A DNA stretch of 39,916 nt from a virus, in the IMG/VR virus record IMGVR_UViG_3300042566_000614, positions 1 to 39,916 of that record. One strand, 5' to 3'. Of the stretch, positions 6,264-12,985 are shown one piece after another. A model generated the notes under the pieces. It saw only the letters and a list, made by a program, of their open reading frames with translations, did not search any database and was not told the DNA's origin. Both the position numbers and the translations under genes were made by a program. How positions within the stretch are numbered: position 1 is the first letter of the stretch; each line of letters opens with the position of its first letter.

Positions 6264-6324
6264 CCCCTACACCACACGACAAAATCGCGCTTAAAATGTG
6301 GGCATTAACACGCAGGGGCTACCC

Positions 6325-7128
6325 ATGACCAAGAATGTGAGAATCGTTTGCGAAGCCAAAGTGTCGCTCGGCCAAGACGCCGACGAAGGCCAGCAACCGA
6401 CTGGAGTTATTGAGGCCACCTGGACTACGTGGGGCGCCCGTGAAGGTGCCGATGGCCGCAAGTTCTTCTACAAGCCCGAGGGCTTTGCCCAGTGGGCAGA
6501 CGAGTTCAAGAAGTCGGGTCGTCCGTTGCCCATGTTTGTAAACCATGAGGGCCAGCAAGTTCCCGTGGGCGAGTGGACCGGGCTGGAAATGGACGATGAT
6601 GGCATGTCCGGCACCGGTCGCATCTTCATGAACACAACGGCAGGTCGAGACCTGTACACGGTCATGAAAGAAAGCCCCAAGATGTTCGGGGGCGTTTCTG
6701 TTGGCGCGTATGCCGACGAGTACCAGTGGGTCACGAAAGAGGGCGATGTCTTCCCCGCTGGGTCTGCCGACGTATGGGACGAAGGCTACTTCCAGATCAC
6801 CAAAGGCGGTCTGCGCGAGGTCTCTGTCGTTATGTACCCGAACAACACCAAGGCCGAGATCAGCAAGCTGGAGTTTTTCCGGCCTGACGGTTCGGCCGAT
6901 CTCAAGGTCATTGAGCGAGCCCTGCGTGACGCAGGACTTGCCAAGGAAGACGCGAAACTAGCCGCGTCTGTTCTCAAGGGCGTTGTCGCGCAGCGGGATG
7001 TTGCCGCCAGTGCCCCTGAAACCAACTCCGCGAAGCGGGATGCTGATACGGACGCGGCTCAAGCGGCCGAGTTGTTGCGCGAACTCGAAAAGCGCGAACT
7101 CTTGGCTGAAATCTCAAAGCGTTTTTAA
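6325..7128 (+). CDS. Prohead maturation protease, S78/HK97 type
   Basis: 267 residues with the ATG at 6325 (MTKNVRIVCEA), preceded by CAGGGGC; the frame is open from a GTG at 6298 but that has no ribosome binding site. The serine protease cleaves the scaffold (delta) domain of the capsid protein during maturation. His74 in 'MFVNHEGQ' and Ser125 in 'GGVSVGAY' fit the catalytic pair of the S78 family. The C-terminal 90 residues are helical and charged, likely an assembly-directing tail. It lies directly upstream of the first capsid gene, which carries the expected scaffold-like N-terminus. Confidence 0.9.
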   Translation: MTKNVRIVCEAKVSLGQDADEGQQPTGVIEATWTTWGAREGADGRKFFYKPEGFAQWADEFKKSGRPLPMFVNHEGQQVPVGEWTGLEMDDDGMSGTGRIFMNTTAGRDLYTVMKESPKMFGGVSVGAYADEYQWVTKEGDVFPAGSADVWDEGYFQITKGGLREVSVVMYPNNTKAEISKLEFFRPDGSADLKVIERALRDAGLAKEDAKLAASVLKGVVAQRDVAASAPETNSAKRDADTDAAQAAELLRELEKRELLAEISKRF

Positions 7129-7138
7129 GGAAACCATC

Positions 7139-8521
7139 ATGTTGAAAGAAGTTATCGAAAAACTGGACGGCATCAAAGCCGCCAGCGAAGCCCAGATCGC
7201 TGAAGCCAAGGTTCACGCCGAAGCCAAAGCCGCTGAAGCCAAAGAGGCTGCTGTCTCCGCTATCGAGGCCGTCAAGGTCGAGATGCAAGAGACCGTCAAG
7301 GCTCTGGAAGCCAAAGTGGCTGAGATCGGCGCTCCCGCCATCGTCAAAATCGAAAAGTCTGTTCGCGCCGATGTGAACAAGCACGTCAAAGAGCAACTGC
7401 GCGACATCGCCAACGGCTCCAAGACTCAGTTTGAACGCGAGTTCAAGATGTTCGCTGACGAGTCCGAGTACAACGCCTACATGGCTGAATCCTCGGCCTT
7501 GACTGCTGGCGGTGACGGCAAGGGTGGTCGTACCGCCTACGATCCGACCTTTGTCGCTCTGCGTCTGGCCAACCCGCTGCGCGGCATCTCTCGCGTCGTT
7601 ACCACTGAAGGCTCCAGCTATCAGTTCCGCGTGAAGACCGGCAACGCTGGTGCTCAGTGGGGCTACCCGGTGCAGAACAACGGCACCCCCACGACCGAAG
7701 ACACTTCGATCTGGCAGGTGGTGCTTAAGGACGTGAACGCCCAGTTCCCGATCCGTACCGCCGCGCTGGACGACATCGACGGTCTGGAAGCCAACGTGGT
7801 TGACGACATGCTGATGGAGTTTGCCCAAGTCGAAGCCCAGTCCATGATCGCCAACAACGACCAGACCGGCAGCGGCACCACCGTGTCCACTGGCGGCGCA
7901 GACGGCCTGCGTGGTCTGGACCAGTACGGCGGCGCAAACGCTACCTACACTGGCGGCACCGTGTCCACCGCAGCTTTCGGCTCCAGCGGCACCGGCTCCA
8001 GTTCTGGTCTGCACTCGCTGGCCACCTACGACCAGTTGACCACCAACGCCAACACGGTGGGCGCCAACAACATCTCGTACAAAGACGTTGTGAACCTCAT
8101 CTACAGCCTGCCGCAGCAGTACTGGACTGCCGACGCCAAGTTCATGATCAGCCCGATTCTGCTGCAAGCGATTCGCGGTCTGACCGATGACCAGAAGCGT
8201 CCTGTCTATATCGACGGTCTGGCCCGCAACGACGGTATCGTCGGCCAACTGCTGGGCTTCGATGTGGTCGTCAACAAGTACATGGATACACCTTCGCAGC
8301 TGGCAACCGGCGCCGCTGGCACCGTTAGCAAGTACCCCATGTTCTTCGCTGACTGGAGCCGCTTCCACACCATCGTTGACCGCCTGAACATGATCATGCG
8401 TCGTTATGATCAGACCCAGCCCGGTTACATCACCTTCTACGGTGAGAAGCGTCTGGCCACTTCCGTTCGTGACCCGAACGCTGGTGTGCGTTATCGCTCG
8501 ACTGGTACGGCTGCGGCCTAA
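7139..8521 (+). CDS. Major capsid protein 1, with scaffold-like N-terminus
   Basis: 460 residues, HK97 fold. Residues 1 to about 105 are alanine/glutamate/lysine-rich heptads typical of the delta (scaffold) domain removed by the prohead protease. The remainder carries recognisable capsid stretches: 'SSYQFRVKTG', 'DTSIWQ', 'VVDDMLMEFAQVEAQSMI', and the C-terminal 'QTQPGYITFYGEKRLA'. The ATG at 7139 has AAGGAAA seven bases upstream; the longer open frame back to 6983 overlaps the protease in another frame and is rejected. A strong terminator follows (8529-8552), which would keep this transcript abundant relative to the genes beyond it. A shorter paralogue follows immediately. Confidence 0.93.
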   Translation: MLKEVIEKLDGIKAASEAQIAEAKVHAEAKAAEAKEAAVSAIEAVKVEMQETVKALEAKVAEIGAPAIVKIEKSVRADVNKHVKEQLRDIANGSKTQFEREFKMFADESEYNAYMAESSALTAGGDGKGGRTAYDPTFVALRLANPLRGISRVVTTEGSSYQFRVKTGNAGAQWGYPVQNNGTPTTEDTSIWQVVLKDVNAQFPIRTAALDDIDGLEANVVDDMLMEFAQVEAQSMIANNDQTGSGTTVSTGGADGLRGLDQYGGANATYTGGTVSTAAFGSSGTGSSSGLHSLATYDQLTTNANTVGANNISYKDVVNLIYSLPQQYWTADAKFMISPILLQAIRGLTDDQKRPVYIDGLARNDGIVGQLLGFDVVVNKYMDTPSQLATGAAGTVSKYPMFFADWSRFHTIVDRLNMIMRRYDQTQPGYITFYGEKRLATSVRDPNAGVRYRSTGTAAA

Positions 8522-8528
8522 GTCCGGA

Positions 8529-8552
8529 GGGGGCTTCGGCCCCCTTTGTTTT
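8529..8552 (+). terminator. Intrinsic terminator between capsid genes
   Basis: GGGGGC (8529-8534), TTCG loop, GCCCCC (8539-8544), then TTTGTTTT. A stable UUCG-capped hairpin with a U tract, placed just after capsid gene 1. Partial read-through would set a high ratio of capsid protein 1 to everything downstream, including its paralogue. Confidence 0.85.
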
Positions 8553-8571
8553 AACTCCTAGAGACTCGACC

Positions 8572-9588
8572 ATGAAAATCAACGAACTTATCCTCAACGG
8601 CGTGAAGACGGCTCTGACCGAGGGCAAAGCAACCATTGACCTTAAAGAGCAGTCGAACATCACCGGCAGCGGCTCTGGCGTTGGCGGTCGAGTCCTCTTT
8701 GACGATGCTTTCGCTGCTGCGCGATACATCAACCCTTTCCGCCAAGGCTCTCGCCAGATCGTGCTCACGGACTCGGACGCCCAGTTCGTGGCCAAGACCG
8801 GCAATGCGGCCAACGCTACCAACCCTTGGGGCTACACGGTGAGCCCCAACAGCGGTTCCCCGAATATCGACACTTCGATCTGGCAACTGCCGGTTCGTGT
8901 TGTCTCCGCACAAATCCCCCTGCGCACTGCCGTGCTGTCCGACGTGAACGCGCTGGACACTGCCATCGTCGATGACCTCATGGCCGAGTTCAGCCAGCTT
9001 GAGGCCGCATCCATGGCCCTGAACGACGATCAGGCCGGGTCCACCACGGTGGCCACGGGCGCCACCTCCGGCCTGCGCGGCTTGGCCACCTATGCGGGTG
9101 GCACCAGCGCCGCATTCGGCACCAGCGGCACGGGTCTGACCAACGGTATCCACACCATCAAGACCGTGGCCAAAGCAGGCGCTACCATCGCCTACGACGA
9201 CATCGTGAACGTGGTCGGCGCACTGCCCGCCCAGTACTGGGCAATGCCGGGTACGGCGTGGCACATTCACCCCGACATGATCACGGCCCTGCGTGCCCTG
9301 AAAGTGCCCACGACCGGCATCCCCTTCTTCCTTGAAGTCGGTGACGAGGACGGCGGTGCAGTGGCCTTCCTGTTCGGCTTCCCAGTGGTCCCCAACCCGT
9401 ACCTCGACATCAATGTGGCGCCGATGTACTTGGCCAACTGGCCCCGATTCATGACTATTGGGGACTTCCCGGAGATCAAGCTGCAACGCATGGAGCAGAC
9501 CCAGCCAGGCTTCATCAACCTGTACGGCGAGAAGCGCGTGGTGTCCACCGTGCGTGACGTGTTTGCAGGCATCAGGTTCACCGTCTAA
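8572..9588 (+). CDS. Second HK97-fold capsid protein, no scaffold domain
   Basis: 338 residues, clearly paralogous to the protein at 7139-8521: both share a WGY segment, 'DTSIWQ', an 'RTA-LxD' patch, 'VDD-M-EF-Q-EA-SM', 'GLRGL', and the C-terminal 'QTQPG' to 'YGEKR'. It lacks the long coiled N-terminal domain; only about 35 residues precede the first strand-like segment. It is separated from gene 1 by a terminator, and its ribosome binding site is weak (AGAGA), so it is likely made in smaller amounts. It may form the pentameric vertices, decorate the shell or replace gene 1 in some positions; that is inference. Reading frame intact. Confidence 0.88.
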   Translation: MKINELILNGVKTALTEGKATIDLKEQSNITGSGSGVGGRVLFDDAFAAARYINPFRQGSRQIVLTDSDAQFVAKTGNAANATNPWGYTVSPNSGSPNIDTSIWQLPVRVVSAQIPLRTAVLSDVNALDTAIVDDLMAEFSQLEAASMALNDDQAGSTTVATGATSGLRGLATYAGGTSAAFGTSGTGLTNGIHTIKTVAKAGATIAYDDIVNVVGALPAQYWAMPGTAWHIHPDMITALRALKVPTTGIPFFLEVGDEDGGAVAFLFGFPVVPNPYLDINVAPMYLANWPRFMTIGDFPEIKLQRMEQTQPGFINLYGEKRVVSTVRDVFAGIRFTV

Positions 9589-9596
9589 GGATCGCC

Positions 9597-10250
9597 ATGA
9601 GCGCCATTGACTCCGTGATGTTGCCGAGTGACCTCGGCCCGACACGAAACCCGTTCAACTATGAGCGAATCGAACTCATCGACCGCGATGTGTCAACGGC
9701 GTGGCTGACCCAAGACGAAGTTCAAAACCAGTTGAACTTATTCGGCGACGACAGTCAAGCGGCTTACCTCGGGCCGCTTGAACTGGCTGTCCGGATGGCC
9801 ATCGAAGACTATCTGGGCGCGTCCTTTGTGAGCGAAGCGTACCGCGTGTATTACTCGCTCAATTCGCTTTATGGCAACCCGCTTGCGCTGGACATACCCA
9901 GCACCCTCAACGGCACACCGACCATCACCAAGGTGGCCTACTACGCAAGCGGCATGCCCCCGACTGAAACAGTGCTCGACCCTAGCGTCTACTTTTATGA
10001 CCTGTCGGGCAATCGTGTCGTTATCAGTTCGATGCCGGATGAGATCAACACCAGCGTGACCAACCCCATCTGGGTCGAGTACACCATTGGCGCCAACCCC
10101 ATGGCCGCTTACCCGGTCATCAAGCAAGCCGGATTGCTGCTGCTGACTCACCTGTACAACAACAGATCGCAAACCACGTCCAAAGCGCAGGTCGTTATCC
10201 CTTGGGGTATTGATATGCTTTTAAGACCCTACAAGCCTCTTATTTTGTGA
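9597..10250 (+). CDS. Head-tail connector, gp6-like
   Basis: 217 residues. Position after capsid genes and the pattern of an N-terminal helical part ('LGPLELAVRMAIEDYLG') , a beta-rich middle, and a C-terminal 'AGLLLLTHLYNNR' helix followed by 'VIPWGIDMLLRPYKPLIL' match HK97 gp6-type adaptors, which form a ring beneath the portal. AAGGA precedes the ATG. In most relatives the next neck gene follows directly; here a homing endonuclease gene sits in between. Confidence 0.8.
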   Translation: MSAIDSVMLPSDLGPTRNPFNYERIELIDRDVSTAWLTQDEVQNQLNLFGDDSQAAYLGPLELAVRMAIEDYLGASFVSEAYRVYYSLNSLYGNPLALDIPSTLNGTPTITKVAYYASGMPPTETVLDPSVYFYDLSGNRVVISSMPDEINTSVTNPIWVEYTIGANPMAAYPVIKQAGLLLLTHLYNNRSQTTSKAQVVIPWGIDMLLRPYKPLIL

Positions 10251-10256
10251 GGGCGT

Positions 10257-10895
10257 ATGAACGTGTACTGGATACGGTTGCCGCAACACACAAACGTACA
10301 TGCGCAAGGGTATGTTGGTATAACGCACGACTTTATGCAGCGTCTGTCCGCACATAAGTCTTGTGCCAAACAAGGACATGCAAACCCGCTGTACCGGGCA
10401 ATCCGAAAGCATGGCTGGGATACGTTAGTCAAGGAAGTTATCGCCCGAGGTACAGAGGCAGAATGCCGTGTCCTTGAATCACAGTTACGTCCCCGAGAAC
10501 GTATAGGATGGAATGTTCTTCCGGGCGGCACTGACATTTCTGGGTTTAAACTCTTGGGAACAAAGCAATCAGCGCAGCATATTGCCAACCGCAGCGCCGC
10601 ACTCACTGGGCGCGTATCTGGGTTTAAAGGAAAAAAGCATTCCCCAGAAGCCATTGAGAAGTGCCGCAGGGCGCATACGGGAAAGCCGAAAACCGTTATT
10701 GCCAATACAAAAAACGCAATCGCACACCAGCGGCCGATAACAATAAATGGCGTACAGTATGTAAGCCGACAAGAGGCGAGTATCATTACGGGTATCCCGG
10801 TCGGCAGTTTTGCATACCTCTTGGCCGGACGCATTGGCCCACGCAGTAAATACGCATGGGTAAAAACCATCACCGATACGGGAATGGGTAGCTGA
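10257..10895 (+). CDS. GIY-YIG homing endonuclease
   Basis: 212 residues. Free-standing homing endonuclease likely to cut cognate DNA lacking the gene and spread by repair. N-terminal GIY-YIG nuclease: 'VYWI' (3-6) and 'YVGIT' (19-23) replace the GIY and YIG signatures, Arg29 and Glu74 ('LESQL') fit the catalytic positions. Next, a NUMOD3-like basic segment, 'GFKGKKHSPEAIEKCRRAH' (about 121-140), and a C-terminal helix-turn-helix-like NUMOD1 region 'SRQEASIITGIPVGSF'. It interrupts the neck genes and is less GC-rich than its neighbours by eye, suggesting recent arrival. SD GAGGGC precedes the ATG; its stop overlaps a TGATATG junction with the next gene. Confidence 0.88.
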   Translation: MNVYWIRLPQHTNVHAQGYVGITHDFMQRLSAHKSCAKQGHANPLYRAIRKHGWDTLVKEVIARGTEAECRVLESQLRPRERIGWNVLPGGTDISGFKLLGTKQSAQHIANRSAALTGRVSGFKGKKHSPEAIEKCRRAHTGKPKTVIANTKNAIAHQRPITINGVQYVSRQEASIITGIPVGSFAYLLAGRIGPRSKYAWVKTITDTGMGS

Positions 10896-11689: not shown

Positions 11690-12184
11690 ATGGCACCCCC
11701 AGCAAAAGTTTTACCCGGTTTTTCAGCCGCCCTGTACATGCAGCCTTCGGCCAGCCCCACGGCACTGACCACGGCAGCGTTGTCTACTTACGCCACCGTG
11801 TCGGCACTGGCCATTTCGGCCAACCAACTTAACGTCGAAGCCATCCCGGCTTTCGGTCAAGACGATGCGGTGGCATCGTTCTCCATCGCGGGTTCGCGTC
11901 AGTCGGACAAAATCCCGGCTCAAGCCGCCCCGACCAGCATGACGATTACGGCACCTTGGGACCCCAGCGATGCCAACCTGCTGCTGATCCGCGGTGACGC
12001 CCAATCCGGCACCGTGGACCGCACGTTCATCATCACGGCCACTGACGGCACTGGTACTGTGTATTACGCCTTCAACGCCCGCGTGGGTGAGTTCAAGATT
12101 GACGCACAGCCAGGCGCCGAAGCCAAGGCCGTGTTCACGATCCATCCCCGTGGCAACCAGTACGGCTGGAGCAACACGCCGTAA
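11690..12184 (+). CDS. Tail tube protein 1
   Basis: 164 residues, beta-rich, soluble, no signal peptide. By position (after tail terminator, before chaperones and tape measure) it is a major tail protein that stacks as rings to form the tail tube. It is a clear paralogue of the next gene: residues 54-76 here are identical to 63-85 there, and 'VGEFKIDAQPGAEAK' and 'HPRGNQYGWSNT' are shared. Ribosome binding site AAGGAAC is nearly the same in both, which suggests similar expression. AAGGAACCAAC precedes the ATG. Confidence 0.85.
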   Translation: MAPPAKVLPGFSAALYMQPSASPTALTTAALSTYATVSALAISANQLNVEAIPAFGQDDAVASFSIAGSRQSDKIPAQAAPTSMTITAPWDPSDANLLLIRGDAQSGTVDRTFIITATDGTGTVYYAFNARVGEFKIDAQPGAEAKAVFTIHPRGNQYGWSNTP

Positions 12185-12219: not shown

Positions 12220-12738
12220 ATGGCCGCACCATCGAAAATCCTACCCGGCTTTGCCGCCTCGCTGTGGATGCAAACCGGCGCCAGCCCGGTTGCCTTCACG
12301 ACCGCCAACCTGTCCGTCTGGACAGGCCAAGTTGCCACCATCGTGGGCACCGCCGCCAACGGCACGGGCGCAGCAGGTACGCAACTTAACGTCGAGGCGG
12401 TTCCCGCTTTCGGCCAAGACGATGCAGTGGCATCGTTTTCGATTGCTGGTTCGCGCCAGTCGGACAAAATCCCGACCCAAGCCGCACCTACCAGCATGAC
12501 CATCACCGCGCCGTGGAACCCCAGCGATGCGGCCCTGTTGCAGATTCGCGCAGACGCCGCAGCCGGGACCGTGGATCGCACTTTCGTGGTGGCCGCTGTC
12601 GATGGCACCACCACGGTGGCCTACGCCTTCAACGGCCGTGTGGGTGAGTTCAAGATTGACGCGCAACCCGGTGCTGAAGCCAAGTGCGTGTTCACCATCC
12701 ACCCCCGTGGCAACCAGTACGGCTGGAGCAACACATGA
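12220..12738 (+). CDS. Tail tube protein 2 (tandem paralogue)
   Basis: 172 residues. Shares most of its sequence with tail tube protein 1 from residue about 55 on, but the N-terminal 54 residues differ and it carries an extra loop (GTAANGTGAAGT, about 43-54). The duplicated DNA includes several exact blocks over 20 bases, for example the one encoding VGEFKIDA. The two may co-assemble, alternate, or one may serve as tail-tip/initiator tube ring. The stop overlaps the next start (ATGA at 12735). Confidence 0.85.
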   Translation: MAAPSKILPGFAASLWMQTGASPVAFTTANLSVWTGQVATIVGTAANGTGAAGTQLNVEAVPAFGQDDAVASFSIAGSRQSDKIPTQAAPTSMTITAPWNPSDAALLQIRADAAAGTVDRTFVVAAVDGTTTVAYAFNGRVGEFKIDAQPGAEAKCVFTIHPRGNQYGWSNT

Positions 12739-12947: not shown

Positions 12948-12950
12948 AAG

Positions 12951-12971
12951 AAGCCCCTTCGGGGGCTTTTT
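12951..12971 (+). terminator. Intrinsic terminator after tail-tube genes
   Basis: AAGCCCC (12951-12957), TTCG loop, GGGGCTT (12962-12968), followed by TTT. Again a UUCG-capped hairpin, placed after a highly expressed virion-protein block, as after the first capsid gene. It would lower expression of the tail chaperones and tape measure relative to the tube proteins. Confidence 0.82.
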
Positions 12972-12985
12972 CACATGGACACGAT

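Follow-up and report, generated by a model that had tools for sequence, protein, structure and literature searches.

Among the well-studied tailed phages, T4, with its vertex protein gp24, is the exception; in the others, the major capsid protein itself fills the pentameric vertices of the head (PMC9958956). The T4 vertex protein is thought to be derived by duplication from gp23; 65 N-terminal residues are lost from gp23 and ten from gp24, and some mutations in the axial domain of gp23 bypass gp24 (PMC9958956). In the T4 record, gene 23 is followed by a UUCG hairpin with a T run, then by segD, which encodes a GIY-YIG homing endonuclease, and then by gene 24. With phage HK97, the capsid protein gp5 has the HK97 fold and an N-terminal delta domain, and a protease gene lies upstream of its gene. 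The capsid protein of the Rhodobacter capsulatus GTA (RcGTA), 398 residues in length, forms both hexamers and pentamers as a single protein; its N-terminus in the particle lies around residues 99-106, and the heads are oblate and only rarely icosahedral (PMC7296036). The resolved RcGTA chains are of 270-297 residues. A diverged paralogue of a major capsid protein is encoded by gene 36 of the Caulobacter phage Colossus (PMC3556154); it occurs in one phage of a group with large genomes, at a distance of ~21 kb from the capsid gene, and is neither tandem nor universal. In the literature covered, mostly that outside subscription, no HK97-type siphophage with a vertex paralogue was found.

The locus described here encodes two capsid paralogues in tandem, MCP1 and MCP2. 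With moderate confidence, we propose that MCP1 forms the hexamers and MCP2 the pentameric vertices of one head, as do gp23 and gp24 of T4.

Two capsid paralogues in one head module

The window, by which is meant the whole stretch of DNA analysed, is an IMG/VR virus record of 39,916 bases from a freshwater phage. Its head module is of the siphophage type, with genes for the small terminase, large terminase, portal, S78 protease, MCP1, MCP2, and head-tail adaptor (Table 1), and no separate scaffold gene was identified in this module among the Pfam and PHROG profile matches. A gene for a GIY-YIG homing endonuclease with a NUMOD3 motif is situated inside the head-tail connector genes (10257-10895). 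Two tandem major-tail-protein-like genes (11690-12184 and 12220-12738) are 73% identical; unlike the capsid pair, this tail-gene pair is variable, with two copies in 70 of the 194 loci that gave a match and one in the other 124, loci cut by a contig end included.

Table 1. Coordinates of the capsid genes of the window, their parts and their neighbours.
Feature	Position	Strand	Basis and remarks
Prohead protease (Peptidase S78)	6298..7128	+	Just 5' of MCP1; Pfam PF04586 E 3.8e-10; PHROG head maturation protease
MCP1, major capsid protein of HK97 fold; long scaffold-like domain at N-terminus	7139..8521	+	Pfam Phage_capsid E 1.5e-27; model similar to RcGTA capsid
MCP1 delta-like region, residues ~1-104	7139..7450	+	Ala/Glu/Lys-rich helices; absent in MCP2
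UUCG hairpin terminator between MCP1 and MCP2	8525..8548	+	Terminator scan
MCP2, capsid paralogue of HK97 fold lacking a delta domain; putative vertex (penton) protein	8572..9588	+	Pfam Phage_capsid E 9.6e-17
MCP2 short N-terminal segment, ~25 residues ahead of core	8572..8646	+	Alignment of 70 pairs
Head-tail adaptor	9597..10250	+	Directly 3' of MCP2; PHROG head-tail adaptor E 3.5e-10

The two reading frames, of 460 and 338 aa, lie where a first-pass annotation of this DNA had placed them, and the four sequence stretches that it had quoted as common to the products are found in both. Each protein matches PF05065 (Phage_capsid) above the curated cut-off of 24.2 bits (MCP1, 97.1 bits; MCP2, 61.7 bits), and the two align with 41% identity over 369 residues (E 4e-77); PF05065 was the only family matched, and neither protein matched the T4 Gp23 family (PF07068). 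The AlphaFold2 model of MCP2 (pLDDT 74.8, pTM 0.76) has the HK97 fold; among solved structures, Foldseek matched it best to the RcGTA capsid (E 3e-17), with the HK97 capsid (E 5e-13) also one of the leading matches. The model of MCP1 is poor (pLDDT 55), yet it matched the RcGTA capsid at E 1.8e-13; it places long N-terminal helices at residues 2-62 and 75-92. The input alignment for structure prediction left out the row for phage P19250A, a relative introduced below. Predicted viral structures, when searched, yielded nothing beyond further uncultured-phage capsids. By both profile and fold, no solved structure is closer to either protein than the RcGTA capsid (6tb9, 6tba), which shares the HK97 fold at an identity of about 17-21%. 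Both proteins best match the same GTA chains, so that the fold search was uninformative as to pentamer or hexamer subunit, a distinction that a monomer model would be unable to make.

Across 70 pairs, the common core is preceded by 98-116 residues in MCP1 and by 23-33 in MCP2 (in the window, by ~105, mostly helical, and ~26, respectively), and a delta domain as in MCP1 is absent from MCP2 in all 70. MCP1 resembles HK97 gp5 in its fold, its N-terminal delta domain and its upstream protease gene, and it alone of the two combines a helical N-terminus of ~100 residues with an upstream S78 protease, as in a delta domain of the HK97 type; HK97 has one capsid gene, whereas the present phage and its relatives always carry a second paralogue, one lacking the delta domain. 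The earlier description of two HK97-fold paralogues, only the first with a delta-like domain, is upheld by Pfam, fold matches, and alignment alike. No significant similarity was detected between the N-termini of MCP2 and MCP1, and the notion that MCP2 retains the tip of the MCP1 scaffold domain was rejected, as 48 of 200 shuffles scored equally well. Within the core, 57 positions are fixed and identical across both proteins in the 70 pairs, while seven are fixed and different, and segments 268-274, 300-307, and 387-394, together with a C-terminal tail, are found in MCP1 only. Assigned by the order of structural elements and not by coordinates, the core differences would all fall beyond the spine helix, in the region that mainly forms the axial domain, to which gp24-bypass mutations map in T4 gp23 (PMC9958956).

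Two complete capsid folds could also mean that MCP1 and MCP2 build alternative shells, giving heads that differ in size or shape, and not a single shell in which they are mixed, and the closest solved relative does produce both oblate and rare icosahedral heads (PMC7296036). This is very improbable, however: MCP2 is without a scaffold domain, no gene for a separate scaffold was recognised in the head module, and a single portal and protease serve both proteins.

Distribution, origin and selection of the pair

The capsid pair is a constant feature of a large lineage of siphophages, most of them uncultured. Four scans covered viral contigs and a fifth covered genome contigs; some of the resulting loci lie on the same contig, and a locus was regarded as testable if the end of MCP1 was complete and followed by at least 700 bases. 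MCP2 lies directly behind MCP1 in all 258 testable loci (203 distinct junctions), none of which represents a relative with a single capsid gene, and conversely, MCP1 is found upstream in 257 of 257 MCP2 loci with room for it. Exactly two copies, with no third, occur in 12 complete or large records, one copy being split across the ends of one record. Beginning from 50,697 phage records, tblastn retrieved only the Methylophilaceae phage P19250A (KX815270), with both genes; it is the only isolate with the pair in the phage collection searched, and its gp5 and gp6 are 57 and 59% identical to MCP1 and MCP2, respectively. The pair sits between the protease and adaptor genes in the lineage, P19250A included. 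Gp6 of this phage is annotated as ‘hypothetical’, and the accessible parts of the literature on P19250A do not note the pairing; neither virion proteomics nor cryo-EM for the lineage was found in the literature covered.

Interrupted reading frames are rare among the loci. The MCP1 frame is interrupted in L129 (4491-5840) and that of MCP2 in L081 (613-1742), through a natural break or an assembly error. In L046 (5674-6999), and also in L066 and L067, the MCP2 frame runs ~110 residues further upstream with a different sequence, possibly representing an extra N-terminal domain or a separate in-frame gene start.

Beyond their own orthologues, MCP1 and MCP2 are each other's nearest known relatives. 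A tree of 30 pairs separates them on one fully supported branch, and when 15 single-capsid proteins from proteobacterial genomes are added as outgroups, MCP1, MCP2, and the outgroups form one group each (support of 86, 99, and 100). This topology points to a single duplication inside the lineage, prior to its radiation, with the root somewhat uncertain owing to the long outgroup branches. Considering the length of the RcGTA capsid protein, its start in the particle and the size of its resolved chains, the long N-terminal domain is probably ancestral, and would have been lost by MCP2.

Median dN/dS values over 264 unsaturated comparisons are 0.11 for MCP1 and 0.16 for MCP2, by which measure MCP2 is under purifying selection; these values and the tree rule out a pseudogene or a recent copy. 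The mean distance is nonetheless greater for MCP2 (0.35 compared to 0.21), which evolves faster. The two distance matrices correlate (Mantel r 0.61, a value reached in 0 of 999 permutations), and this r would leave room for some recombination. Faster evolution would fit a relic or redundant spare copy without a distinct role, but a dN/dS of ~0.16, frames intact in nearly all loci, and the lack of a single loss in 258 already disfavour this idea, which we consider the most improbable of all.

The intergenic hairpin and the T4 parallel

The UUCG hairpin reported earlier between the two genes was recovered by a terminator scan. Following the MCP1 stop, a hairpin more stable than its shuffles (z below -2) was found in 68 of 69 dereplicated loci; hairpins of this stability follow the portal gene in 9 of 60, the protease gene in 6 of 69, MCP2 in 18 of 68, the adaptor gene in 5 of 65, and the capsid gene of the single-capsid outgroups in 4 of 15. 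Comparison with these neighbouring genes and outgroups ruled out chance, or a general habit of the phages of the lineage, as its explanation. The 46 distinct hairpins vary in sequence, with both sides of the stem changing together at several pairs. A run of at least four T occurs at the 3' end in 56 of 68, and in a subgroup resembling L095 the hairpin is not followed by a T run. Another UUCG terminator-like hairpin was noticed by eye at 12950-12975 of the window, 3' of an 87-aa ORF behind the tail protein genes.

The 50-base gap between MCP1 and MCP2 in the window showed no promoter-like site, which makes read-through the probable source of MCP2 expression. The first-pass annotation also attributed a weak ribosome binding site to MCP2, and while this is true of the window (-2.9 compared to -6.1 kcal/mol for MCP1), it was rejected as a family trait; among 70 phages, the MCP1 site is the stronger in 35 and the weaker in 35. 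The position of MCP2 behind the terminator and its missing scaffold domain might suit it to a role in assembly, as a delta-less decoy or a regulator of size that would cap or limit the shells of MCP1 while being largely missing from virions. We judge this improbable, given that a full capsid fold, strong purifying selection, and retention throughout the lineage better fit a structural part, and that no earlier case of a full-length capsid paralogue acting as a decoy was found. The same features of MCP2 leave the decoy substrate suggested earlier without support.

Regarding a structural role, the locus shares with T4 gp23/gp24 its tandem capsid paralogues, a long N-terminal region on the first and a short one on the second (propeptides in T4), and a UUCG terminator after the first; MCP2, as a tandem duplicate with a shorter N-terminal extension, resembles a T4-like vertex paralogue in these respects. 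The two systems differ in capsid family (PF05065 here, PF07068 for gp23 and gp24), in scaffolding (separate core proteins in T4, a scaffold-like domain fused to MCP1 here), in size (a large prolate head in T4, a genome of ~40 kb here), in the identity of the paralogues (~20% in T4, 41% for MCP1/MCP2), and in that the vertex role is proven for gp24 and proposed for MCP2. Because the T4 proteins fall into a different Pfam family, the two systems are unlikely to have inherited the arrangement from a common ancestor, and convergence offers the simpler explanation; the arrangement thus looks to have evolved independently here. Only the single case of T4 provides the parallel, which may be coincidental. 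At one locus (L123, 5704-6246), MCP1 and MCP2 are separated by a 180-aa ORF, in the way that segD separates genes 23 and 24 of T4; by eye it appears to be GIY-YIG endonuclease-like, and it has no Pfam match.

A proposed division of labour

In the proposed model, MCP1 and MCP2 would function as the two shell proteins of a single phage head. MCP1, bearing the delta-like scaffold domain, would build the hexamer lattice with the portal and protease, and would be trimmed by the S78 protease. Without a scaffold domain, MCP2 would probably be unable to start a shell alone; its pentamers would occupy the eleven non-portal vertices through peripheral contacts common to MCP1. The terminator would hold MCP2 transcription, along with that of the connector and tail genes that follow, at a level lower than for MCP1, an attenuation that would suit a ratio of ~55 to 360 subunits if the head were T=7, as is assumed from the genome size. 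For MCP2, we infer in this model its presence in the virion, vertex location, copy number, and order of assembly, together with the transcription attenuation.

That MCP2 is a vertex or minor protein, one that may be made at low ratio, as the first-pass annotation had put forward, is likely considering the terminator kept in 68 of 69 loci and the similar anatomy of the T4 locus. The 57 fixed and identical positions are as expected if MCP1 and MCP2 share a lattice, and the concentration of their differences in the predicted axial region suggests a separate type of capsomer and not mixing. Counting against the vertex assignment, the faster evolution of MCP2 (0.35 vs. 0.21) also fits a peripheral role, and hairpins follow capsid genes even where there is no second capsid gene (the 4 of 15 outgroups). 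The main rival to the vertex assignment is a minor subunit placed elsewhere, either within hexamers or in a capsomer ring around the portal, where it would thin the scaffold domains of the prohead. The HK97 fold and the conserved residues common to MCP1 are compatible with such a location, as is a gene downstream of the terminator that adjoins the adaptor gene, but the systematic differences concentrate in the axial region and the T4 precedent is a vertex protein; we therefore regard a location elsewhere as possible but unlikely, and favour the vertices.

Whether the small HK97-type siphophages of this widespread lineage have arrived independently at a T4-style pairing of a scaffold-bearing hexamer protein with a scaffold-less penton, with a terminator setting their ratio, is to our minds an evenly balanced question. 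If true, the split between hexamer and penton proteins by gene duplication would have happened more than once, with this being an apparently independent case in a small HK97-type phage. A scaffold domain would then be needed on only one of two shell proteins, and the vertices of an HK97-type prohead would be filled by a subunit unable to nucleate assembly. With a phage of the lineage isolated on a cultured host, Methylophilaceae IMCC19250, the idea is directly testable. The annotation of a ‘hypothetical’ gene is corrected to that of a conserved capsid protein.
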